A stretch of 39,457 nucleotides of DNA. It comes from Candidatus Woesearchaeota archaeon. GTDB taxonomy: Archaea; Nanobdellota; Nanobdellia; SCGC-AAA011-G17; JAGVZY01. This document shows positions 7,868 to 38,248 of the stretch, piece after piece; positions within the stretch are counted from its first letter, which is position 1; every line of letters starts with the position of its first letter. The notes below the pieces were generated by a model, which was not told where the DNA came from, ran no database searches, and saw nothing but the letters and a program-made list of their open reading frames with translations. The stretch spans positions 1 through 39,457 of the forward strand of contig JAGVZY010000005.1 in NCBI GenBank assembly GCA_018302225.1, given 5' to 3'. The position numbers and the translations under genes were made by a program.

Positions 7868-8554
7868 TTATTTTTTCTTCATTGCTTCTGTAATTCTGCT
7901 AAGCTCTTTTATATTTGCAGTCATTGGTTCTAAAATCTTTTCAAAGACTTTTTCCATTGCCTGCATTTCAGAAGTTACATTAGTAATATTTTTGTTATAT
8001 TCATTAACTTTAGAGATTAATGAATTTTGTAAGTTTTCAAAGTTTGTTCTTAATCTTAGAACTTCCTGTTTTATTGCTTCTACTTCCATTCTATTTTTTT
8101 CTTTCCAGACTTGGAAGTCTCCGATTTTTTCAATTAATTGAGACCATTTTTCACTTATTATTAATTCTACAGTTTCTTCAATGTCTTGATTTGAGAATTG
8201 TTGCTGTTGTTGATAGTTTTGTTGAGGTTGAACTGGAGAATATGATTCTTGTGGACTTGGAATTTCTGGTTCTGAAGGCATATCCATTTGAGATATGTCT
8301 GCTGGCTGAGTTGCAGAATCATCCATTAGAGAGGGTTGCATACTTGACATATCATCAGAGTATGGTGAAGGAGCTTCACTCATTTCATCTTCGGTTGGTT
8401 GGTTTACACCCATTTTAACATCAGTTTGATTTAGTGCGTCGTATATTTGTTGTGAACTGAATCCCTTGCCTTGGAGATCTTTTATTATTTGATCATTTGT
8501 TAGACTTTGTTGTTTCAAAGCTTCGACTTCTTTTACAGGCGTATTAGTCGGCAT
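7868..8554 (-). CDS. Coiled-coil protein, possibly ArlC/FlaC-like
   Basis: 228 residues in three parts. An N-terminal helical module of about 45 residues (LTNDQIIKDLQGKGFSSQQI) resembles a UBA-like or short helix-turn-helix fold. A Pro/Gln/Ser/Met-rich disordered linker spans about 50-120. A long coiled coil of about 125-225 ends in EPMTANIKEL. The C-terminal coil resembles the cytoplasmic ArlC/D/E proteins that form a ring around the archaellum motor. The start overlaps the end of the upstream coiled-coil gene by 11 bases, so translation is coupled. Homology to ArlC is inferred from architecture and position beside FlaI/FlaJ, not from a clear motif. Confidence 0.65.
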   Translation of the reverse strand: MPTNTPVKEVEALKQQSLTNDQIIKDLQGKGFSSQQIYDALNQTDVKMGVNQPTEDEMSEAPSPYSDDMSSMQPSLMDDSATQPADISQMDMPSEPEIPSPQESYSPVQPQQNYQQQQQFSNQDIEETVELIISEKWSQLIEKIGDFQVWKEKNRMEVEAIKQEVLRLRTNFENLQNSLISKVNEYNKNITNVTSEMQAMEKVFEKILEPMTANIKELSRITEAMKKK

Positions 8555-8930
8555 TTTCAGTTTCTGACTGCAGTTCTAGCAGTTCTTTTAATTGTTTTTT
8601 TGTAATATCCTTTACTTCTGTTTCAGTTACATATCTAAGTGGATTCCACATATTAATATACTTTTCTAAAACCTTTATATCTTGTTTTCGTGCAAATTCT
8701 GAAGACTCTTCAATCATATGTTTTAGAGTTTCCTTCATTTTTGTAATTTCTATTCTCATTTCTTTAATGTCTTGTGAAGAAATTTGATGTTTAGTTATAG
8801 CTTTTCTGCTTTCTTCTATTAAGTTTGAGTTTGTAACTGAAATATCATCTTTAATAAGATTTACTTTGCTTTCTAGAACTCTTAAACGTGCAGCAAATTC
8901 GTTTAAGTTTTGTACGTAGTTTTCAGGCAT
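8544..8930 (-). CDS. Coiled-coil protein, ArlD/E-like
   Basis: A 128-residue protein: a long coiled coil over about 8-85, then the segment WNPLRYVTETEVKDI, which resembles the ArlD/FlaD and ArlE/FlaE C-terminal signature (P-x-x-Y-V/I-T-x-x-x-V-x-x-L). In euryarchaea these proteins join the archaellum motor to the chemotaxis system. It is the first gene of a two-gene minus-strand unit. It is divergent from the FlaI gene across a 190-base spacer that holds the palindrome array. Moderate confidence for ArlD/E; high confidence for a real coding gene. Confidence 0.65.
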   Translation of the reverse strand: MPENYVQNLNEFAARLRVLESKVNLIKDDISVTNSNLIEESRKAITKHQISSQDIKEMRIEITKMKETLKHMIEESSEFARKQDIKVLEKYINMWNPLRYVTETEVKDITKKQLKELLELQSETENAD

Positions 8931-8949
8931 TTTAATGAAATGAATTGTT

Positions 8950-9051
8950 GTTGGTTTTTACCAACGAAATGTTCGTATAACAAACAGTCGTTAGCATTAA
9001 GCTAACGAAATGTTCACAAAGTGAATAGTCGTTAACCCTTGGTTAACGAAA
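8950..9051. repeat. Tandem 40/41-base palindromic repeat array
   Basis: Two and a half units begin at 8950, 8990 and 9031. Each opens with a hairpin whose arms differ but still pair: GTTGGT/ACCAAC (8950-8955, 8960-8965), GTTAGC/GCTAAC (8990-8995, 9001-9006) and GTTAACC/GGTTAAC (9031-9037, 9041-9047). Between them lies a conserved GAAATGTTC...AGTC segment holding a second weak dyad (TTCAC/GTGAA at 9013-9017 and 9021-9025). The compensating base changes indicate that structure, not sequence, is kept. The array sits in the divergent spacer of the appendage locus. Confidence 0.75.
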
Positions 9052-9128
9052 AGTATTTAATAACTGTAATTAAATAGTTAAAAATAAAAGTGTTTAATAA
9101 GTTATGTTATTATAACTAAGTGGTTATT

Positions 9129-11402
9129 ATGCTATTTCAATCAAAATTAAAACCTGATCAATATGAAGTAAGAAAAGAGGGTCAAGATGAAGTTATGCTT
9201 ATAAATGCAGATGGTTCTAGCTATGCTCCTTCTATTGAAGATGATAAAAATTGTATGAGAAGTACTATATTAAAACTAGTTGAAGTTCCTTCTATTACCA
9301 AAATTATTTTTGTACAAAGAAGAAATTATGAATATGAATTTGATAATGTTCAGTTGTTAACTGAGATTGCTACAATTTATAACCATCTGTCTAAAAGAAA
9401 AAAAAGTTTTAGTGTCGGGGCTTTTACTTGCAGTTCGTGTGGAAAAAGTCATCCAGATAGATATAATTTCATACAAGGAATAATTAATAATTTGTTATTA
9501 TATGATCCTATTGGAGCATATGTTGAATTAAGAAGAACAATAAGAGAACAGAAAATTCTGTCTAAAAGTTATGCATGTATAGATTGTAGTCAGAATTATA
9601 TGGCTTTGCTTGAATATTTTATGAATTTGCTTGAAAAGACGAAATTAATAATTTTAGCACAGCCTTATTTTGATGGCTATCACCTTGGTGATAGAAGTGT
9701 TTATAGAAGAATTTTCAGGGTAGTAATTACACCCAATTTTATGTATACTAAATTAATGTCTCAGGTACCATTAGGTGCAGAAATATTAGATTCTTATAAA
9801 ATTGGAAAAGATGCAGAAGTAACTATTTATGATACTAATGATGATATAAAACATCTTTATCATTTGAGTCCCCCAGAGTTTAGATTGAGTGAAGAGAAAT
9901 ATGAACTTCTTGAAATGGCTAGAATGGTATTGGCAGAACATAAACCTAAAGAAGAAGATTTTTCAGATCCTGAAAAAATGAGAAGTACTTTTTTTAATAT
10001 CGGTAGAGATTTAATACAAGAATTAGCAGAGCATAAAAATATTGAGTTAAGTTGGAGAGAGCTAAAAGATATTACTAATATTTTGGTAAGATATACTGTT
10101 GGTTTTGGGTTAATAGAAGTTTTGTTACAAGATCAAAAAATACAAGATATAACTATTAATGGTCCTATTGGACAAACAAAAATATTCATAGTTCATCAGG
10201 ATTATGATGATTGTGTTACAAATATAATGCCTGCTTATGATGATTCTGAAAGTTGGGCAACTAAGTTTAGATTATTAAGTGGGAGACCTTTAGACGAAGC
10301 AAATCCTGTTTTAGATACAGAATTAATTTTACCTGATGCAAGAGCAAGAGTTGCAATAATTTCTAGACCATTAAATCCTTGGGGGTTGGGTTATGCATTT
10401 AGAAGACATAGAGACAAACCATGGACAATGCCCCTTTTTGTTAATAATGGTATGTTAAGACCTATGGCTTCTGGTTTGATGAGCTTTTTAATTGATGGTT
10501 CAAGAACTGTGTTAGTTGCAGGAACAAGATCAAGTGGTAAAACTTCGCTTCTTGGAAGTTTTTTAGTTGAGATAATGAGGAAGTATAGAATTCTAACCGT
10601 GGAAGACACAATGGAACTTCCGACTGAAGCAATGAGAAGTTTAGGTTATAATATTCAACCTATGAAAGTTATGAGTGCATTATCTAAGGGTGGAAATGAA
10701 ATTGCAGCTGATGAAGGTATAAGAACTTCGCTAAGATTAGGAGATAGTGCATTAATTGTTGGTGAGATAAGATCTAGTGATGCATTGGCATTGTATGAAG
10801 CTATGAGAGTTGGTGCTTTAGCTAATGTTGTTGCAGGTACAATTCATGGTGCAAATCCTTATGGTGTATTTGATAGAGTTGTAAATGATTTGGGTGTACC
10901 TAGAACAAGTTTTAAGGCTACAGATATAATTGTTGTTGCTAATCCAATAAAATCTTCAGATGGTTTAAAAAGATGGAGAAGAGTTACACAAATAACTGAA
11001 GTTAGAAAAACTTGGGAAGATGATCCTTTAAAAGAAGGAGGTTTTGTTGATTTGATGAGATATGATAGTAAAACTGATAGACTAGAACCTACGGATGATT
11101 TAATAAATGGTAATTCAGAAATATTAAAAGATATTGCAGGTAATATAAAAGATTATGCTGGAAATTGGGATGCAGTTTGGGAGAATATTTTATTAAGATC
11201 TAAAACTAAAGGTGTATTAGTTGATTATGCTAATAAAACTGGAAAATTAGATTTGCTTGAAGCACCATTTGTTATAAAATCAAATGATGTTTTTCATAAG
11301 ATAAGTGCAAAAATTAAAGATGAGATAGGATTTCCAGAACCAAAAAGAATTTATGCTGATTGGGAAGATTGGTTTAAGAAAGAGTTGAGGTACGGCAAAT
11401 AA
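9129..11402 (+). CDS. FlaI/ArlI-type secretion ATPase with zinc-ribbon-like insert
   Basis: The ATPase that powers assembly of archaeal pili or archaella. The catalytic half has Walker A GTRSSGKTS (around residue 465), the arginine-rich linker and Walker B SALIVGEIRSSDALALYEAMRVG with the family's E and following histidine box (AGTIHGANPYGVFDRVVNDL). The N-terminal half contains two cysteine pairs, CSSC and CIDC (C101/C104 and C150/C153 counting from this ATG), a likely zinc site not found in textbook FlaI. The C-terminus runs on about 100 residues past the core. I start at the ATG at 9129; a GTG three codons upstream is the alternative. At about 757 residues it is longer than typical FlaI (500-550). 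It is transcribed with the platform gene that follows. Confidence 0.92.
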   Translation: MLFQSKLKPDQYEVRKEGQDEVMLINADGSSYAPSIEDDKNCMRSTILKLVEVPSITKIIFVQRRNYEYEFDNVQLLTEIATIYNHLSKRKKSFSVGAFTCSSCGKSHPDRYNFIQGIINNLLLYDPIGAYVELRRTIREQKILSKSYACIDCSQNYMALLEYFMNLLEKTKLIILAQPYFDGYHLGDRSVYRRIFRVVITPNFMYTKLMSQVPLGAEILDSYKIGKDAEVTIYDTNDDIKHLYHLSPPEFRLSEEKYELLEMARMVLAEHKPKEEDFSDPEKMRSTFFNIGRDLIQELAEHKNIELSWRELKDITNILVRYTVGFGLIEVLLQDQKIQDITINGPIGQTKIFIVHQDYDDCVTNIMPAYDDSESWATKFRLLSGRPLDEANPVLDTELILPDARARVAIISRPLNPWGLGYAFRRHRDKPWTMPLFVNNGMLRPMASGLMSFLIDGSRTVLVAGTRSSGKTSLLGSFLVEIMRKYRILTVEDTMELPTEAMRSLGYNIQPMKVMSALSKGGNEIAADEGIRTSLRLGDSALIVGEIRSSDALALYEAMRVGALANVVAGTIHGANPYGVFDRVVNDLGVPRTSFKATDIIVVANPIKSSDGLKRWRRVTQITEVRKTWEDDPLKEGGFVDLMRYDSKTDRLEPTDDLINGNSEILKDIAGNIKDYAGNWDAVWENILLRSKTKGVLVDYANKTGKLDLLEAPFVIKSNDVFHKISAKIKDEIGFPEPKRIYADWEDWFKKELRYGK

Positions 11403-11477: not shown

Positions 11478-13658
11478 TTGCAGATAAGTGATGAAGAGAT
11501 AAAAAATATTTTGGGAAAATATGATAAGAAATTTAATGATCACTTAGATGATAATAGTAAATCTTTTTCTTTGGAATATAAGAAGTTTAAAGATGCTGAA
11601 CGAGGTGGAAAGAAAAATTGGTATGAATCTTGGTGTGATATTGCTGAAAGAATAATTCCTGTTAAAGTTAAAGATTCTGATATTGAAAAGGTAAAAGAAG
11701 CAATTAGATTTACAGGTTTAAGAGTAACACCCACTGGAACTAATTCTTTTGGTGTTTTAATTGGTGTTGCAATGGTTTTAGTTGCTATTCTATATCTTGG
11801 GTTAATGACTATGGTTGAAAGCACTTCTTTAATAGGCGCAGTTTTGTTTTCTTTAATATTCATTTTAATAGGAGTTGCAATTATTAAACCTTTAAGTAAT
11901 TTAATTTTCTTTTTTGAACAGAGAAAGAGACTAGAAACAAGTAATCAAATGGTTATTTGTATTTTGTATATAGTTATGTATATGAGGCATACTTCTAATT
12001 TAGAACATGCTTTGAGTTTTGCTGCTGAACATATTGGTGGAACACTTGCTAAAGATTTGAAAAAAGTTTTTTGGAATATAGAAACTGGAAAGTATAGCAC
12101 AATAAAAGAAAGTCTTGATAATTATTTAATTTATTGGAGAACTTATAATCCTGACTTTGTAAATTCTTTAAATTTAATTGAAGCTAGTTTGTATGAACCT
12201 TCTGAACAAAGAAGAATAGAAATTTTAGATAAATCTTTGAAAGTTATGCTTGAAGGAAATTATAGAAGTATGATGCATTACGCACATGATTTGAAAGCAC
12301 CTATGGAAGCTTTGCATATGTTGGGTGTTATTTTACCAATTTTAGGATTGGTTTTAATACCCTTGTTTGCGGCTTTTATTGATGTTGGTGCTGATACTAA
12401 GATTATTGGATTGATTTTACTTTACAATATTTCGTTGCCTATCTTTGTTTATTTAAAGGGTATGAGTTTGCTTTCTAAACGACCTGCTTCACAAATGGGA
12501 TTTATGTTAGATTATGAAGGTGGGAAATATGAAGATTATAGAACTGTTAATTTTTTAGGTGGCAAATTAAATCCTGCAGTAATTGCAGTTTTAATATTTT
12601 TATTTTTCTTTGTAATTGGAATTTCCCCTTTATTAATGCACATAATTTCTCCAGGACAAGATTTTGAAGTGATTAAGGGTATGAGTTTTTTAGGATACAC
12701 AAAAATTGAAGAGGGTTATGTTGGTCCGAGTGGAATTGGTGCTTTGCTGATAAGTCTATTTGTTCCTTTGGGTTTAGCATTATCTTTGGGTTATTATTAT
12801 AAGGCAAAAAGTTCTAAACTTGTAAAATTAAGAGAAGATGTTAAAAAGATAGAAGATGAGTTTTCAAGTATTTTGTTTCAGTTAGGAAATAAGATTGGGG
12901 ATGGTCTGCCTGCTGAAATTGCATTTAGTAAAGTTGCTGAAGAAATTGGAGAAGGTCCATCGTCTGGATTTTTTAAGAATGTGGTTAGGAATATACAACG
13001 ATTAGGAATGAGTATTAAAGATGCTATTTTTAATTCGTCAAATGGTGCTTTGATTTATTATCCGTCTATGTTAATTATGACTTCGATGAAAATTTTAGTT
13101 GAAACGGTGAGGAAAGGTCCAAAGATTGCTGCAGATTCATTGATGAATATTTCAAAGTATATTGAGAATTTAAATTCTGCTTCTGAGAGATTAAAAGATT
13201 TACTTGCGGAAGTTGTTTCTAGTATGAAAAGTCAGATTAATTTTTTAACTCCTTTGATTGCAGGTATAGTTGTTGGAATTGGGAGTATGATAATTAGTAT
13301 TTTGAGTTTGTTTTTGGGGGTTGGTAAAACTTCAACTTCGGGGGTAGATACAGGTGCACTTACAGAGGCAGGTGCTTCGGGTTTGCAAGGGATAAGTGGA
13401 ATATCTGAATTTTTTAATCCTGCGAATATTATTCCGACTTATTACTTTCAAATTATAGTGGGAGTATATGTTTTAGAAATAGCTTTAATATTGACTATTT
13501 TGGCTAATTCGATCGATAATGGTGGAGATCAGTTAAGTAAAGAGTATGCTCTTGGAAAAAACTTATATAAAAGCACATTTTTATATATGGTAGTTGCATT
13601 AATTGTAGTAACTATATTTAATTTGCTTGCAATGTCTGTTGCGAGTAAGGTGGCATAA
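11478..13658 (+). CDS. FlaJ/TadC-like platform protein with two T2SSF domains
   Basis: The integral membrane platform on which the FlaI-type ATPase acts. The 726-residue product has an N-terminal cytoplasmic part (1-85), a helix pair at about 88-140, a first cytoplasmic T2SSF-type helical domain (about 150-270), helices at about 275-325 and 365-385, another helix pair, a second T2SSF domain (about 450-600: FSSILFQLGNKIGDGLPAEIAF and following), and three C-terminal helices. The duplicated layout is that of archaeal FlaJ. It starts at a TTG at 11478, preceded by AGAGGATGAT as ribosome site; no ATG fits. It lies 75 bases after the ATPase gene. Confidence 0.88.
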   Translation: MQISDEEIKNILGKYDKKFNDHLDDNSKSFSLEYKKFKDAERGGKKNWYESWCDIAERIIPVKVKDSDIEKVKEAIRFTGLRVTPTGTNSFGVLIGVAMVLVAILYLGLMTMVESTSLIGAVLFSLIFILIGVAIIKPLSNLIFFFEQRKRLETSNQMVICILYIVMYMRHTSNLEHALSFAAEHIGGTLAKDLKKVFWNIETGKYSTIKESLDNYLIYWRTYNPDFVNSLNLIEASLYEPSEQRRIEILDKSLKVMLEGNYRSMMHYAHDLKAPMEALHMLGVILPILGLVLIPLFAAFIDVGADTKIIGLILLYNISLPIFVYLKGMSLLSKRPASQMGFMLDYEGGKYEDYRTVNFLGGKLNPAVIAVLIFLFFFVIGISPLLMHIISPGQDFEVIKGMSFLGYTKIEEGYVGPSGIGALLISLFVPLGLALSLGYYYKAKSSKLVKLREDVKKIEDEFSSILFQLGNKIGDGLPAEIAFSKVAEEIGEGPSSGFFKNVVRNIQRLGMSIKDAIFNSSNGALIYYPSMLIMTSMKILVETVRKGPKIAADSLMNISKYIENLNSASERLKDLLAEVVSSMKSQINFLTPLIAGIVVGIGSMIISILSLFLGVGKTSTSGVDTGALTEAGASGLQGISGISEFFNPANIIPTYYFQIIVGVYVLEIALILTILANSIDNGGDQLSKEYALGKNLYKSTFLYMVVALIVVTIFNLLAMSVASKVA

Positions 13659-18915: not shown

Positions 18916-18941
18916 TTCACACCTCTTTTCCCAGTTGTGAA
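18916..18941 (-). promoter_or_regulatory. Inverted repeat upstream of the winged-helix gene
   Basis: TTCACA (18916-18921) and TGTGAA (18936-18941) form a perfect 6-bp inverted repeat, centres 20 bases (two helical turns) apart. It lies 14-40 bases before the ATG, between the start codon and a TATA-like TTTATAAATA (minus strand, about 18961-18970). The spacing suits a dimeric regulator, possibly autoregulation. Confidence 0.45.
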
Positions 18942-19017
18942 TGTGATTAATAGTTTTAGTTATTTATAAAGAATATTAGCTTATATTTAAATGTTGCTGT
19001 AAATGATTAAATCAGGT

Positions 19018-20199
19018 TTAAGAATTTAATTCTATAATTTTTCTTAATGAAATTATGAATCTTTCACATTCTTCTTGGGTGTTATAAAAATATAATGATG
19101 CTCTTGCAGAACCTTTTAAGTTATGTTTGTTAAACCAAGAATGAACACAATGTGCACCTGAACGTATACATATATTGTCTGTTTGATCAAGCATAATTGC
19201 TACACTATGGGAATCCATATTTTTAATATTAAAACTAAAAATTCCTGAACGTAATTCTGAATTATGTGGCCCAAGAAGCTGAATGTTTTTTGTTGTTATT
19301 TCTGGTGCAAGGGATTCTGTTAAGAATTTGTTTAATTTTAATTCGTGCTCTGAAATGTTTTTCATTCCAAGTTTATCTAAGTAATCTATTGCAGAACCTA
19401 ATCCAATAATACCTGCATAATTTTGTAAACCCGCTTCAAATTTGTGAGGAACTTCTGCAAGTTTAAAATTTTCATAGGTGGAATCTTCAACTGTTTCCCC
19501 ACCCAATAAAAAAGGAGGAATTTCATCTAATAAATGTAATTTTCCGTAAAGGATACCTGTTGCACTCGGACCAAGCATTTTATGTCCCGAGCATACGAAG
19601 AAGTCTGCATCAAGTTTTTTTAGATTTATTTCTTTGTGTGGTGCACTTTGGGCTCCATCTACTAAAACTCTAACATTATGTTCATGAGCAATTTTAATTA
19701 TTTCTTTTAATGGGGTTGAGGTTCCATCTAAATTAGAAGTGTGTTGTATTGCGACTAATGATGCTGTGTTTATTTTTTCTGAAAAATCTTTTAAGTCGAA
19801 TTCTGGTGTTGTGTTAATTGGTTGAACTTTGAATTTTTGCCAAGGTAAAAGATTTGAATTATGTTCTTTGTCTGTTGTAAGAATGATATTGTCTTTTTTT
19901 AAGTTTAAGGTGTTGCTTAGTAAATTTATTGCTTCTGTAGTGTTTTTTGTGAATATAATTTCTTCATCTTTTGAAGCATTAAAAAATTTTCTTATTTTCC
20001 TTCTTGAATTTGATATTTCTTCTGTTGTTCTTTTGCTTAGTTGGTGTATACTTCTTCCTGCACAAGCTGGATAGTCTTGATAATATTCTGAAATCTTGTT
20101 TATAACCTGTAGAGGCTTTAAAGAGTTACAGGCATTATCAAAGTAGATAATACCTTTTTTTAAAATTGGGAAGTCCTCTCTTGTCTTTTTTAAATCCAT
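19018..20199 (-). CDS. sufS: Cysteine desulfurase, SufS/CsdA type
   Basis: PLP-dependent enzyme that takes sulfur from cysteine for Fe-S clusters and thio-modified RNA. The 393-residue product has the PLP lysine in SGHKMLGPSATGILYG, the ATP-independent aminotransferase fold throughout (VDGAQSAPH with the PLP aspartate) and the catalytic cysteine in RSGAHCVHSW, close to the RxGHHC motif of group II (SufS) enzymes. No sufBCD genes are nearby in the window. It stands as a single transcription unit. Identification to the family is firm; the exact physiological acceptor is not visible. Confidence 0.93.
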   Translation of the reverse strand: MDLKKTREDFPILKKGIIYFDNACNSLKPLQVINKISEYYQDYPACAGRSIHQLSKRTTEEISNSRRKIRKFFNASKDEEIIFTKNTTEAINLLSNTLNLKKDNIILTTDKEHNSNLLPWQKFKVQPINTTPEFDLKDFSEKINTASLVAIQHTSNLDGTSTPLKEIIKIAHEHNVRVLVDGAQSAPHKEINLKKLDADFFVCSGHKMLGPSATGILYGKLHLLDEIPPFLLGGETVEDSTYENFKLAEVPHKFEAGLQNYAGIIGLGSAIDYLDKLGMKNISEHELKLNKFLTESLAPEITTKNIQLLGPHNSELRSGIFSFNIKNMDSHSVAIMLDQTDNICIRSGAHCVHSWFNKHNLKGSARASLYFYNTQEECERFIISLRKIIELNS

Positions 20200-21389: not shown

Positions 21390-22388
21390 TTAACAGTTAC
21401 CTGATGCAGCTGCAGCTGTTGAATCTAAGGTAGATCCACATTCATTTGGTGATGTTGCAAATGTAGCACAGATTACTTCTTTGTAGCCGTCAGCTGATCT
21501 AGATTTTACTTGTGCTTCAACTTTATTTATTATTAAAGTTGGAGAACCTGAAACATCTAATTCTTCTGAAAGTTTAGCATCTGCACTTAGTAATTCTTTA
21601 CCTTCTTTTTCTGCACAAGCTTTTACTGTTGCTACAGTTATTCCTTGCTTTGTAGCACATTGTTCCCATACTGTTGCAACGTTTTTGTAGTCTTTATTAA
21701 CACATTCTAAGTAATTTAAATATTTATCATTAAATTTAGATTGAATACAAACTTGTCTTAAATCTTCTTGGACTTCAGCATCTCCATGAAGGCTTTGGAA
21801 TTTTCCGTCACCTAAATCACTTACAATAAATCTAATTTTATAGTCTATTTTTCCTTTTAATAATTCAGCAACTGATTTTATTGCATTTTCAGCTTGAACT
21901 CCATAAGGGCATTGAGACATTACAAATAGGTTTACTTCTGGTTTATCTGTTTTTGGAACGGTTGTTGTAGTTGGGGTGTTATCATTTGATGCTGAATCTG
22001 CTGTGGAAGCATCCATTGGAATTGCAGCTAAGACAAATAACTTTCCATCTTGAGAAACATAAGAGGAGTATTCTTTACCATCAATTTCAAATTCTACCTT
22101 ATATAAACCCGATTCTTTTTCTATTGATGCTACTTCAATTGTTGATGTTGGTTGCATTGTTTTTACAAAAGTTTCAAATTTTGTTGATGCATCTGATGCT
22201 GAAATTGCGCCTGTGATGCAAGATTTTGAAAATCCATTTGTTAGTATTGCAATTATAAATAAAATTGCAAGAATTCCAGACAAAGTTTTCCAATTTAATA
22301 AACTTTTAAATTTGAATGAACTTTTCTTTTTTTCATGTTCTTTGTGCTCTATTTTTTCTTCATGTTTTTTATGTTCGTGTTCTGTCAT
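21390..22388 (-). CDS. Membrane-anchored DsbA/GILT-like thioredoxin-fold protein
   Basis: A 332-residue protein: a His/Lys/Glu-rich cytoplasmic N-terminus (1-30), one membrane helix (about 34-52), a small beta domain (about 65-122), a Thr/Pro linker, and a thioredoxin-fold domain from about 150. The active-site motif is C160-P-Y-G163, so the second cysteine of CxxC is missing. A helical insertion carries several cysteines (QVCIQSK, LECVN, EQCATK, KACAEK), and the cis-proline loop SGSPTL is intact. A single active-site cysteine suggests a disulfide isomerase or reductase that resolves through another cysteine. The ribosome site GAGGTG precedes the ATG. It probably works with the Cys-rich neighbour and the VKOR-like protein. 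Confidence 0.85.
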   Translation of the reverse strand: MTEHEHKKHEEKIEHKEHEKKKSSFKFKSLLNWKTLSGILAILFIIAILTNGFSKSCITGAISASDASTKFETFVKTMQPTSTIEVASIEKESGLYKVEFEIDGKEYSSYVSQDGKLFVLAAIPMDASTADSASNDNTPTTTTVPKTDKPEVNLFVMSQCPYGVQAENAIKSVAELLKGKIDYKIRFIVSDLGDGKFQSLHGDAEVQEDLRQVCIQSKFNDKYLNYLECVNKDYKNVATVWEQCATKQGITVATVKACAEKEGKELLSADAKLSEELDVSGSPTLIINKVEAQVKSRSADGYKEVICATFATSPNECGSTLDSTAAAASGNC

Positions 22389-31185: not shown

Positions 31186-32370
31186 TTATAAGAACAAAGA
31201 TATTATAATCTTTATGATTTTTAAAATCCAAGGCCAGATTAAAATAGCCATAAGGAGTAAGAAAAATGAGTTTATCCATAACCAGATCCTTTTACTGTGT
31301 CTAGGGTGTTTGGTTATTAACAAAGCTAATGATTGTATCATCTTTCCACCATCAGTTATGAAAATGGGCAGGAGATTCATTAGGCCTACAAATAAGTTAA
31401 TTAAAGTCATCCATAGGAATAATAATTTTGTCCATGAAAATGATTTAAGCAAGAATGAACCATATTTTGCTTGCATTTCAGGTTTATATCCTATTGAATA
31501 ATCTGAAGCAAGAATGCCTAATTTAGTTTTGTTATCTAAGTTAATATTATAATTTGATGAATTTGTTTTTAGGGTTGTATTTGTGTTTGCTAAAAGTTTG
31601 ACTTGATTGTCCAGTTGTTTTGCATTTGAGATTTTTATTTCATTTATTTCTGTAATGATCTCATTTTTTTCTGGAAGCGTATTAAATGTTGAATTATCGG
31701 TTATATCATAAATTATAACTCCTTGTGTATTAATTGTATTTGCTTCTATTGGTGAGATTACTAGGAATATCCCTAAGAAAATTATAAATAAAATTAGGTT
31801 TGCAAATGGTCCTGCGCTAAAAACTTCTAATTGTGCTTTTGGTGAACGTTTTGATAATTTTTTTTCATCTGGTTCTACAAATGCTGCGGGTAGAATTGGA
31901 AGAAAGATTGCTAAGAAAGCAAATCCTGATGATTTTACCTTGATATTGTGGCGTCTTGCATAAACTCCATGCGCAAATTCATGTGCTGCGGCTAAAATAG
32001 TTATTGCAATAATCCAATGAAAGAATGAAAGGTTAGGGTAACCTGGAATTTGAACTCCTGGAAGTAAAGGATAAACACTACTTTGAGATTCTAGTGGGCT
32101 GTAGATTATGGGTATTACTCCAAAAATAATTACGGTTGATATTATAGCCATACCTAGTATACCTATGATAATAGAAATAATACCTATCAATGAAAGAATC
32201 TTGTGTTTTGAGAATTTATTCATTAATTTCAAACCCAATTTTGTTCTGTACATTACAACATAAAATATTGGAAAAATAATTTTTTCTATAGCTACATTCT
32301 TTTTGTTTAGTAAAAGTATCAGAAGTATAACTAAACCAAATACTGTAAGTAAAATTAAATCTATATTCAA
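31186..32370 (-). CDS. Site-2 protease, M50 family with PDZ-like insert
   Basis: A 394-residue membrane metalloprotease. The zinc motif H130-E-F-A-H134 lies in a membrane helix and is followed by the conserved YARRHNIKVKSSGF turn. The third ligand lies in NLLPIFITDGGKMIQ near the C-terminus. A soluble segment of about 215-290 between helices fits a PDZ-like domain. It cuts membrane-bound substrates in regulated proteolysis. Compare the motif-less relative at 4175-4933. The downstream gene tatD follows after seven bases. Identification is firm; the substrates are unknown. Confidence 0.92.
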   Translation of the reverse strand: MNIDLILLTVFGLVILLILLLNKKNVAIEKIIFPIFYVVMYRTKLGLKLMNKFSKHKILSLIGIISIIIGILGMAIISTVIIFGVIPIIYSPLESQSSVYPLLPGVQIPGYPNLSFFHWIIAITILAAAHEFAHGVYARRHNIKVKSSGFAFLAIFLPILPAAFVEPDEKKLSKRSPKAQLEVFSAGPFANLILFIIFLGIFLVISPIEANTINTQGVIIYDITDNSTFNTLPEKNEIITEINEIKISNAKQLDNQVKLLANTNTTLKTNSSNYNINLDNKTKLGILASDYSIGYKPEMQAKYGSFLLKSFSWTKLLFLWMTLINLFVGLMNLLPIFITDGGKMIQSLALLITKHPRHSKRIWLWINSFFLLLMAILIWPWILKIIKIIISLFL

Positions 32371-33492: not shown

Positions 33493-33523
33493 ATTTTTAA
33501 AGCTTTTCAAAGTTGTTTATAAA
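33493..33523 (-). repeat. Duplicated 31-base promoter element, copy 1
   Basis: Identical over 31 bases to 34248-34278. On the minus strand it begins with TTTATAAA (a TATA-like box), followed by ACTTTGAAAAGCTTT. It ends 21 bases before the ATG at 33472. The spacers after both copies are also alike in AT pattern. Confidence 0.7.
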
Positions 33524-34247: not shown

Positions 34248-34278
34248 ATTTTTAAAGCTTTTCAAAGTTGTTTATAAA
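34248..34278 (-). repeat. Duplicated 31-base promoter element, copy 2
   Basis: Exact copy of 33493-33523. It contains TTTATAAA at 34271-34278 and lies 21 bases upstream of the ATG at 34227, the same distance as copy 1 from its ATG. Confidence 0.7.
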
Positions 34279-34479: not shown

Positions 34480-34938
34480 ATGATACCAATAAATGAAAGA
34501 AAATTAGTTCTAAAATGGGATGAAAAAAATAAAACTCAACAAGAAATAGCTGAATTGCTAGGATGTCATCAGACTTCCATAAGTAGACTTCTTGCTAAGT
34601 ATAAAAATAAAGGCACTGTACAAAATCTACCACGAAGTGGTAGACCAACAAAACTAAAAGGAAAAACTCTCTATAGACTTAAAGAACTAATTCTCAGAGA
34701 AATTGAATTAGCAAACAACCAATATTGTGCTGTAAGCACAAAACAGATTGGGGAACTTATTCACCAAGAAATTGGTGAAGTTTATACAATGCGTCATGTT
34801 GAAAGAATTATGCATAAACTGGGTTTTTCTTTAATTACTCCAAGACCCCAACATCTTCGTCATGACCAAAATAAAGTTGATAAATTTCGTGAAGACTTTA
34901 AAAAAAACTTCAATCGCAGTATGTGGGCTATGAAATAG
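34480..34938 (+). CDS. IS630-family transposase, first frame (DNA-binding part)
   Basis: 152 residues. The N-terminal half has a helix-turn-helix (NKTQQEIAELLGCHQTSISRLL) and the family's NLPRSGRPTKL linker; the second half (VYTMRHVERIMHKLGFSL) is the second winged-helix region. There are no catalytic acids. Near its end the run TTTAAAAAAAAC (34897-34908) contains the slippery heptamer A-AAA-AAC (34902-34908) in the right phase for a -1 shift into the second frame. The main product from this frame alone would be the DNA-binding part. Confidence 0.85.
   Translation: MIPINERKLVLKWDEKNKTQQEIAELLGCHQTSISRLLAKYKNKGTVQNLPRSGRPTKLKGKTLYRLKELILREIELANNQYCAVSTKQIGELIHQEIGEVYTMRHVERIMHKLGFSLITPRPQHLRHDQNKVDKFREDFKKNFNRSMWAMK
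34902..34908 (+). other. Putative -1 frameshift heptamer A AAA AAC
   Basis: In the first transposase frame the codons are TTT AAA AAA AAC. Slippage back one base at AAC enters the second frame, continuing through CTT CAA TCG CAG TAT to the GTG at 34923 without a stop. This is a standard way to make full IS transposase. The sequence supports it; expression is not shown. Confidence 0.6.
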
Positions 34939-35435
34939 TTGCTATTGATGAAGCAAGCTTCCAATTAAATACAGATTATAAAAGAATTTGGTTTCTTAAA
35001 GGAAAGAAACCAAAAAGAGCTTTCTTTTGGAGCAATAAGAAGTTAACTGTATTTGGCGCACTTACTAGTTCATCAAAATTTTATTATGATTTCTATATTG
35101 CACAAAACAGTTTAACATTTAGCTTTTTTCTAAAAGATTTTTTTGCTTGGCTTGATTCAAGCAAAAAATATGTGCTTATTCTTGACAATGCAGGATTTCA
35201 TAAAACTGATTGTGTAAAAAGTTTATTAGAAACACAAAATAAATGGATTGCAGTTGAATATATACCTCCTTATTCACCAGAACTTAATCCTATTGAAACC
35301 TGTTGGAAAGTAACCAAAAATGCTGTAACAAGATCACAGCATTTTAAGACTATTGATGCTATGCAGGAGGTTTTGGAAGATTTTTGGGATAGTCATATTT
35401 TTATGCAGAACTTTATGCACTATTTATGTCGTTGA
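34923..35435 (+). CDS. IS630-family transposase, second frame (DDE catalytic part)
   Basis: 170 residues with the catalytic triad in order: D in VAIDEASF, D in LILDNAGFHK, E in YSPELNPIETCW. This is the IS630/Tc1 DDE signature (LDNAGxHK and PPYSPxLNPIE). The frame overlaps the first by 16 bases in the -1 phase. It is probably made as a fusion through the slippery run at 34902-34908; the GTG at 34923 could give it alone. No internal stop, so the element may be recent and active. Confidence 0.88.
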   Translation: MGYEIVAIDEASFQLNTDYKRIWFLKGKKPKRAFFWSNKKLTVFGALTSSSKFYYDFYIAQNSLTFSFFLKDFFAWLDSSKKYVLILDNAGFHKTDCVKSLLETQNKWIAVEYIPPYSPELNPIETCWKVTKNAVTRSQHFKTIDAMQEVLEDFWDSHIFMQNFMHYLCR

Positions 35436-35631: not shown

Positions 35632-37266
35632 ATGGCCGAGGGGATTCAGTTAAAGGTAATGGAAGCTTTGCAAGAAGAGGCTTACAAGGGTATAATTAGA
35701 ATTGACTCTGAAGCTATGCGTTCTATAGGTGTAAGACAAGGAGATATTGTTGAGATTGAAGGTGATAGAGTAACTGTTGGTTTGGTTGATAGAGCATATC
35801 CTTCTGATGTTGGTCAAGCAATTATTCGAATGGATGGTATAATCAGAAAAAATGCAAAGACTGCAATTGGTGAAAATGTAATTGTAAGAAAAGCTGATGT
35901 GAAAGAAGCAAAGGCAATTACTGTTGCACCGGCACAAAAAGGTGTGATGGTTCAAGCTCATCCTGATCTTTTTAAAAAAGGTTTACTTGGAAGAGCAGTT
36001 GTTAAAGGTGATATAGTTTCTCTTGGTGGTGCTCGAAGAAGAACAAAAGTTATGTCTGATACTCCTAATTTAGAAGAAATATTTAATGTGTTTGAAGAAA
36101 ATTTTAGTGATTTTAGTTTGCGTGGTTTGAAATTTGTAATTGCAGATGTTTTACCAAAACAAGCTGTGTTGATTACCGATGGAACACAAGTAAAATTAAA
36201 TCCAAATGCAATCGATGTTGTTGAAGAATCTGTTCCTGATGTTACTTATGAAGATATAGGTGGATTGAAAGAAAGTATAACTAAAGTTAGAGAGATGGTA
36301 GAATTACCATTAAGACACCCAGAAATATTTAGAAGGTTGAGTATTTCACCTCCTGCTGGAGTTTTGTTACATGGTCCACCTGGATGTGGAAAAACTTTAC
36401 TTGCAAAGGCAGTTGCAAATGAATCAGAAGCTCATTTCATTTTAATTAATGGTCCTGAAATTATGAATAAGTATTATGGTGAAAGTGAAAAAAGAGTTAG
36501 AGAATTATTTGAAGAAGCTGAGAAACATGCTCCGACAATTATATTTATTGATGAGATTGATGCTATAGCACCAAAAAGAGAAGAAGTTCATGGTGAAGTA
36601 GAAAGAAGAGTTGTTTCTCAATTGTTAACTTTAATGGATGGATTAAAATCAAGAGGAAGAGTGGTTGTTATTGGTGCAACAAATAGACCAAATGCAATTG
36701 ATCCTGCTTTACGTAGACCTGGAAGATTTGATAGAGAAATTTCAATTGGTGTTCCTGATGTTAAAGGAAGATATAATATTTTACAGATACATACAAGAAA
36801 TATGCCTTTGAGAGGAAAGATTCACTTAGATATTTTTTCAGAAGTTTTAATTAGTAAAATTGATTCTAAGATTAAAGAAATAATTGATGAAAAGAAAAAA
36901 TTAAATGACGAAATAATATTACTTAGAATTAAGATTAAAGAAGCTGAAAAAGAATTAAAAACTAATGATGAAACTTTAATTGGACGCATTAAAAATTCTA
37001 TACAACAGAATAATAAAAGAGTAGGAGAACTTAGTGAAGATCTTTCAAAAAATGAGGTCTTGTTAAAGAGAGTTTCTAATTTATCTGATCTTAAATATAA
37101 AAAAGAGATAATAGAGTCTATTTATCAAGAAGTAAAAGAATTAGATGGCTTAGAAATTTATAGAAAGTCTGTTGATAAGAATGATCCAAGAATTAAATTT
37201 ATAGAATCTAGAAAAGAAGATTTGGGTAAAGAATTGTTTGATTATTTTAAGAAGATTATTACCTGA
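35632..37266 (+). CDS. cdc48: CDC48/VCP-type AAA ATPase, N and D1 domains plus coiled coil (frame-broken)
   Basis: 544 residues. The N-terminal domain (1-180, double-psi barrel and CDC48_2-type region) is complete. D1 has Walker A GPPGCGKT (248-255), Walker B IIFIDEID (about 303-310), and Arg-finger region [11 protein letters not shown]. After IHTRNMPL (about 385-395) a normal CDC48 continues with the lid sequence HGFVGADL...EAAM. Here that is replaced by about 140 charged residues of strong coiled-coil pattern. The frame then ends at a TGA just after the place where it overlaps the D2 frame. With one T removed from 37245-37248 the two parts join as ...[10 protein letters not shown]..., the expected CDC48 junction. 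A TATA-like TTTATAAA lies at 35564-35571. Confidence 0.85.
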
Positions 37267-38248
37267 AATAAAATTAAGAGATAAGAATCCTATACCCAAG
37301 GAAGTTTTGGATAAATTAGTTGTTACGCCTATAGATTTTGAAGAAGCTTTGAGATTAGTAAGACCTTCTGCTTTAAGAGAAGTATTAATTGAAAAACCAA
37401 ATACTACTTGGGAGCAGATAGGTGGTTTGGAAAGTATTAAAGAAGAAATTAAAGAGGCAGTCGAGTGGCCACTAAAATATTCTGCAAATTTTAAAAGAAT
37501 GGGAATAAAACCTCCGAGAGGAGTTTTGTTATATGGACCACCTGGAACTGGAAAAACTTTACTTGCAAAAGCAGTTGCAAATGGAAGTGAAGCAAATTTC
37601 ATTTTAATAAAAGGTCCAGAGCTTCTGAATATGTTCGTGGGAGAGTCGGAAAAGGGTGTTAGAAAGATATTTGAGAAAGCAAGGCAAGCTGCACCTACAA
37701 TTATATTTTTTGATGAAGTAGATTCTATAGCTCATAAGAGAGGAATGGAATTTGGAGAAAAGGTTACTGAAAGAATGGTTAATACTTTATTATCTGAAAT
37801 GGACGGGTTACAGGAATTAAATGATGTTTTAGTTATTGCAGCTACAAATAGGCCTGATATGATAGATCCTGCTTTGTTAAGACCTGGAAGATTTGATAGG
37901 GTAATATTAATTCCTGTTCCTGATGAGAAATCAAGATTAGAGATATTAAAGGTTCATACTAAAGGTATGCCTATAGCTAAAGATGTTAATATTAATGAAT
38001 TAAGTAAAGGAACTAATAATTATACTGGTGCTGATATAGAAGCTCTTTGTAGAGAAGCTGCAATATTAGCTTTACGTAAAGATAAGAATGCAAAAGAAGT
38101 AAAGATGGATAATTTTAAAGATGCATTGAAAAAGGTAAAGAATTCTGTTGATAGTGAGGATATGGAGAAGTATAAAAGAATAGAGGAAGATTATTTGAAG
38201 ACAGCGAGAGGTGCTGCTATAAAGGAGAAGTTGAGTTATTTAGGATAG
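37238..38248 (+). CDS. cdc48: CDC48/VCP-type AAA ATPase, D2 domain (second part)
   Basis: 336 residues in another frame. It begins with [24 protein letters not shown], the usual linker from D1 to D2, then a complete D2: Walker A GPPGTGKT, Walker [16 protein letters not shown], sensor [14 protein letters not shown] and lid [17 protein letters not shown]. The listed start is TTG at 37238; no ATG or clear ribosome site precedes D2. It may be read by frameshift from the first part, translated separately, or split by a one-base error. Total reconstructed length is about 871 residues against roughly 730-760 for most archaeal CDC48, the excess being the coiled coil. Confidence 0.85.

Follow-up and report, generated by a model that had tools for sequence, protein, structure and literature searches.

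Five palindromes lying back to back occupy the DNA ahead of a secretion ATPase operon in a Candidatus Woesearchaeota archaeon, and arrays of the same type are found at other loci, bringing their number in the 814-kb genome to at least six. At four promoters the centre of the final palindrome falls 17.5-19 bp from the centre of the TATA box, and relatives from the same order, which retain both genes and core promoters, lack the arrays. The arrays adjoin several genes, core housekeeping genes among them, and we give a probability of roughly 40% to the reading that they are promoter-proximal upstream activating (UAS) arrays, which would act as double-stranded DNA bound by putative stacked dimers.

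Five palindromes ahead of the ATPase operon

The window, i.e. the whole stretch of DNA analysed (39,457 nucleotides), contains at 8948-9049 three A palindromes of the form GTTRRY...RYYAAC that alternate with two B palindromes:

8948..8967, + strand: palindrome A1, TTGTTGGT(TTTT)ACCAACGA
8970..8986, + strand: palindrome B1, TGTTCGT(ATA)ACAAACA, with one C.A mismatch
8988..9008, + strand: palindrome A2, TCGTTAGC(ATTAA)GCTAACGA
9011..9027, + strand: palindrome B2, TGTTCAC(AAA)GTGAATA, with one G.T
9029..9049, + strand: palindrome A3, TCGTTAACC(CTT)GGTTAACGA, whose 3' foot overlaps the BRE

With AA and G as the linkers between A and B, the order is A1-AA-B1-G-A2-AA-B2-G-A3, followed by the BRE/TATA CGAAAAGTATTTAAT, and the repeating unit is the pair of an A and a B palindrome on a register of about 20 bp. 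The original prediction had described two and a half units of 40/41 bases; the A palindromes are indeed spaced by 40 and 41 bp, but B1 and B2 had been overlooked, and counting all five palindromes gives a true period of some 20 bp. Its account of arms that vary between units yet pair within each holds for the very sequences it gave, and so does the recurrent core, as GAAATGTTC (8966-8974, 9007-9015) and AGTC (8986-8989, 9027-9030) each occur twice.

Tandem Repeats Finder does not detect the window array because its arms diverge, and no Rfam family reaches its gathering score in the window. Folded as RNA, positions 8944-9060 give z = -5.4 on the plus and -7.2 on the minus strand, equalled by none of 200 dinucleotide shuffles, and folded as single-stranded DNA with DNA parameters they give z = -7.4; triplets of hairpins at 38-43 bp spacing occur once in the window and not at all in 10 shuffled windows. 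The surrounding genes and promoter are as follows:

7868..8554, - strand: second coiled-coil-like gene, with a weak DUF2226 match below the cut-off
8544..8930, - strand: divergent coiled-coil-like protein (P0001), its start codon about 17 bp from the array
9047..9061, + strand: core promoter of the ATPase operon, BRE CGAAA plus TATA TATTTAAT, kept by order relatives as CGAAAACTATTTAA
9120..11402, + strand: T2SSE/TadA-type secretion ATPase (PF00437, 1.8e-13), the downstream gene, in a type IV-pilus-like operon
11478..13658, + strand: predicted multi-pass membrane protein after the ATPase, with no Pfam match and TadC/ArlJ-like by position and look only

Placed right against the BRE/TATA that serves the ATPase operon, the array sits where it could control expression, as had been proposed; the suggested control in both directions is conjectural as regards the divergent coiled-coil gene. 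A homologue of the P0001 coiled-coil protein is present in 53 of the 61 genomes searched. In a gene-order comparison of 30 loci, with the ATPase adjacent in some but not all, many order relatives have the P0001 start codon, almost at once CGAAAACTATTTTAA (e.g. CATTTTAATCGAAAACTATTTTAA in L024), and then the ATPase gene. Because CGAAAACTATTTTAA follows that start codon almost directly in these relatives, the window array looks like an insertion of about 110 bp between CATTTTAAT and the conserved BRE/TATA.

The ATPase start is preceded, at 9086-9119, by a leader of the type AAAAGTTATGTTR...AGTGGT, which is common to several order relatives and often reads as a very short upstream ORF (ATG TTA TTA TAA in the window). 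Elsewhere in the window, overlapping ORFs at 34480-34938 and 34923-35435 resemble a frameshift-split IS630-type transposase with strong hairpins inside; a second overlapping pair (35632-37266 and 37238-38248) resembles one split CDC48/VCP-type AAA ATPase, with an odd coiled-coil stretch where the two ORFs join (within 35632-38248); and a TTTTCAAAGC-type tandem repeat with a 10-bp period is found upstream of two neighbouring genes (33494-33512, 34249-34267).

Further arrays and their distance from the TATA box

A BLAST search of the 121-bp window array against its own genome returned only itself. A covariance model built from the three window units matched contigs C14, C7 and C15 of the source genome, weak matches on C16 and C11 being rejected as no array is present there, and a hairpin-array detector added the rpl32e-rpl19e array. 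The genes flanking the arrays, identified by Pfam, and the distances to TATA boxes, which like the promoters are predicted by sequence and conservation, are given below:

Window array: centre spacings 20.5, 20, 21 and 20 bp; last centre to TATA centre 18.5 bp
C7:~21,728-21,867, EF-1alpha array: centre spacings 19, 22, 20.5, 21.5 and 21.5 bp; last centre to TATA centre 19 bp
C14:~31,240-31,350, rpoK array (upstream gene an RNase PH-family exosome subunit): centre spacings 20, 20.5 and 19 bp; last centre to TATA centre 17.5 bp
C10:~18,937-19,022, tRNA-Arg(TCT, intron)/LeuRS array: centre spacings 21, 22.5 and 20.5 bp; last centre to TATA centre 18.5 bp
C15:~40,990-41,072, array by an unknown gene preceding a Fic-family gene: centre spacings 19.5, 21 and 20 bp; ends about 50 bp before the presumed TATA
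C10:~9,955-10,047, rpl32e-rpl19e array: looser centre spacings of 23.5, 25 and 21 bp; no evident TATA

The search for the unit elsewhere in the genome, suggested by the original prediction with a lack of other copies named as what would speak against it, has thus yielded at least six arrays. The layout A-AA-B-G-A is common to the window, EF-1alpha and rpoK arrays. The tRNA-Arg(TCT) gene (L073 1771-1896) has an intron and is detected only if introns are allowed, and chance probably accounts for a hairpin of 5 bp seen upstream of the rpoK array.

What might such a geometry serve? In the five promoter-type arrays the centres lie 19-22.5 bp apart, and at the ATPase, EF-1alpha, rpoK and LeuRS promoters a palindrome stands beside the BRE/TATA at the constant distance given above, as in Lrp-type operators. 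In archaeal activation of the Lrp type, one dimer site lies within a few bp of the BRE and further sites follow upstream, two or three helical turns apart (PMC2995911), and it is the match of the constant TATA distance and the two-turn period to this architecture that leads us to stacked dimers. With palindromes recurring every two helical turns, homodimers of a single protein or of a small set of relatives would line up along the same helix face, and the last dimer would be able to contact or recruit TBP/TFB; the effect would presumably be activation, at target promoters including those of EF-1alpha, rpoK, LeuRS and the pilus ATPase. The arms might stay matched through dimer symmetry combined with quasi-palindrome template switching, or through selection for pairing itself. 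The sites of Lrp/AsnC activators (Ptr2, Ss-LrpB, LysM; PMC2995911) share with the arrays a BRE-proximal palindrome, phased upstream sites, AT-rich centres and clustering; they are, however, imperfect and 13-17 bp long, whereas the arrays consist of 4-6 near-perfect, back-to-back palindromes that change in sequence and alternate between A and B. Two arrays fit the UAS reading poorly, that on C15, because of its distance from the presumed TATA, and the rpl32e-rpl19e array, which lacks an evident TATA, has spacings of 21-25 bp and is probably transcribed.

The latter array, in being probably co-transcribed, bears on the alternative that the hairpins act in the transcript, be it as a 5' UTR of a divergent gene, as a read-through leader or in operon processing. 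The window array could likewise fall in the 5' UTR of the coiled-coil gene, and its RNA folding scores agree with such a role. The alternative is nevertheless improbable, for the EF-1alpha array lies upstream of the starts of both flanking divergent genes and the tRNA-Arg/LeuRS array occupies the whole gap between two outward TATA boxes. Standing upstream of or between divergent promoters, these two arrays should escape transcription from them, which makes a DNA-level role likelier than an RNA one in their case. Furthermore, mismatches are few in the arrays, with no clear strand bias to G.U, and no Rfam match exceeds its gathering score; the sole sub-threshold match, of the sucA RNA motif (RF01070) to the rpoK array, is weak (30.5 bits, the gathering score being 40), and although tandem hairpins are common to both, the rpoK array lies upstream of a promoter. 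A hammerhead ribozyme-like GAAA/GUC spacing was dropped, the CUGANGA core being absent and Rfam giving no match. As to the stem-loop or two-fold protein site originally proposed, the paired changes across units that prompted it are confirmed, but a stem-loop in a transcript is an unlikely reading of the EF-1alpha and tRNA/LeuRS arrays.

Pairing that persists as the arms change

The hairpin-array detector, which requires at least 3 hairpins, found four arrays of 4-5 hairpins with scores of 39-48 in 511 kb of the source genome (sampled stretches, about two thirds of the total). In 15.3 Mb of order-2 Markov shuffles it found 13 arrays of at least 3 hairpins, the best scoring 29 and the ten best all having 3 hairpins; none had 4 or more. 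It is a conservative tool, as it misses the window array because of the mismatch near the loop of B1. Simple hairpins are no commoner in the sampled source genome than in shuffles.

The A and B hairpins were delimited by hand on one strand, in promoter orientation. Pairing is seen in 90.6% of cells of 12 A hairpins (57.3% when arms are reshuffled between hairpins, maximum 69.8%) and in 97.6% of cells of 12 B hairpins (41.2% reshuffled, maximum 56.0%), percentages that lean high because the hairpins were chosen for pairing, the independent test being the shuffled-genome control. Covariation is 0.789 versus 0.201 shuffled, in a model-fitted alignment that counts overlapping both-strand matches of hairpins again chosen for pairing; it is of the kind expected of structured RNA, yet it fits RNA and DNA palindromes alike. 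The A arms keep GTT/AAC in 10/12, 10/12 and 11/12 hairpins at the three pairs and vary as RRY further in, as would a recognition half-site, and the B arms have almost no consensus. The B arms do not sit easily with the UAS reading, because dimer sites need no perfect palindromy and these arms pair nearly perfectly without a consensus; moreover, the distance from GTT to AAC differs by several bp among A units. Only 2 of 28 palindrome centres are pairable (P 0.012 by genome calibration and 0.002 against background hairpins, in a post hoc test with one of the 28 doubtful), a scarcity more in keeping with hairpin loops than with a duplex operator.

Two features, the nearly perfect pairing despite the lack of a B consensus and the rarity of pairable centres, favour either a hairpin/cruciform structure or correction by template switching; selection or the latter process may be what maintains palindromy. 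The hairpin/cruciform structure is the main rival to the UAS array, although we consider it rather unlikely: selection would act on self-pairing, and negative supercoiling behind strong or divergent promoters would extrude the palindromes, which would then absorb torsion or present hairpins to a protein. Apart from the scarcity of pairable centres, it would account for pairing that survives arm changes, most strongly in the consensus-free B arms, for the single-stranded DNA folding of all six arrays (z = -6.3 to -8.9) and for the enrichment of G-C pairs beside the loop and at the foot of the hairpins. On the other hand, stems of 7-9 bp extrude with difficulty, cruciforms need neither a two-turn spacing nor a constant TATA distance, and GTT/AAC is retained in the A arms.

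Alternatively, quasi-palindrome template switching alone could match the arms without selection (PMC3820800, PMC7202029), leaving both pairing and array functionless. Through such events, which can be linked to transcription, imperfect inverted repeats become perfect (PMC3820800), and several arrays lie at presumably highly expressed genes. We attach little probability to this explanation, since a mutational process does not extend to the placement of arrays at promoters: the 17.5-19 bp TATA register at four promoters and the A-AA-B-G layout are left unexplained, and simple hairpins do not exceed the shuffle level in the sampled genome. Relative to the palindrome centres, AT-rich peaks lie near 0, +/-5-6 and +/-10, and intrinsic curvature may thus be a contributing feature.

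Distribution and meaning

EF-1alpha loci of 25 order relatives (L132, L140, L142 and L144 excluded) have core promoters of the CGAAACCTTTATAAA type and no comparable array; in G007, where LeuRS is divergent from EF-1alpha, there is none upstream of LeuRS; and the gap from rpl32e to rpl19e measures 1 bp in G031 versus about 96 bp with four hairpins in the source genome. The detector found no arrays in 400 kb of four relatives. An exact pattern and models R1 and R2 in 103 order genomes, and R2 in 378 class genomes, matched the source genome only; since the filters were strict and R2 overlooks two arrays of the source genome itself, those at rpoK and rpl19e, this falls short of proving absence elsewhere. 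Pattern matches in viral contigs were rejected as arrays, being non-palindromic and mostly of one GC-richer sequence family. Of the checks called for by the original prediction, the covariance model thus uncovered other arrays in the source genome, and absence from relatives with the same gene order, named there as a refutation, is observed at the level of the order. As the compared relatives belong to other families of the order and the source genome was the only one of its own family in the comparison, this absence tests lineage specificity, not function.

That the arrays act like insertions relative to other families raises the question of whether they are a mobile or spreading REP/BIME-like repeat, one that a Y1 (HUH) transposase may have moved. 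REP/BIME elements are likewise short palindromes outside genes that form tandem clusters and show alternative complementary stem residues (PMC3733652, PMC2817692), and the source genome encodes a Y1 enzyme and a contig-edge fragment:

C10:43459-43815 (L084, G000): Y1 (IS200/IS605-type) transposase, its flanking hairpins unrelated to the arrays
C3:2-148 (G000): Y1 transposase fragment at a contig edge

This origin, too, seems improbable. REP/BIME families comprise tens to thousands of dispersed units, whereas six loci were found here in about two thirds of the genome; the unit ends lack the GTAG/CGTC tag, no array adjoins the Y1 gene, and a fixed TATA distance is unexpected under random insertion.

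A literature search, mostly of non-subscription papers, found such arrays nowhere described. They resemble an undescribed control element, a candidate for which a DNA-level reading is probably to be preferred over an RNA one. A bolder idea, which we regard as unlikely, is a cis element of a new archaeal class, whose conserved signal would be self-complementarity as such and not the base sequence: tandem palindromes of about 20 bp in helical register with the TATA box, arisen at unrelated promoters in one lineage and acting as DNA hairpins/cruciforms or via a pairing-sensing protein. Palindromes whose pairing is preserved while the sequence drifts allow selection on DNA structure to be tested directly against template-switch mutation. 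To our knowledge, hardly any work has addressed how DPANN archaea regulate their genes; a lineage-specific array at an unvarying distance from the TATA box of EF-1alpha, RNA polymerase subunit, tRNA synthetase and pilus ATPase promoters would indicate that these genes of a reduced genome have a regulatory system in common.
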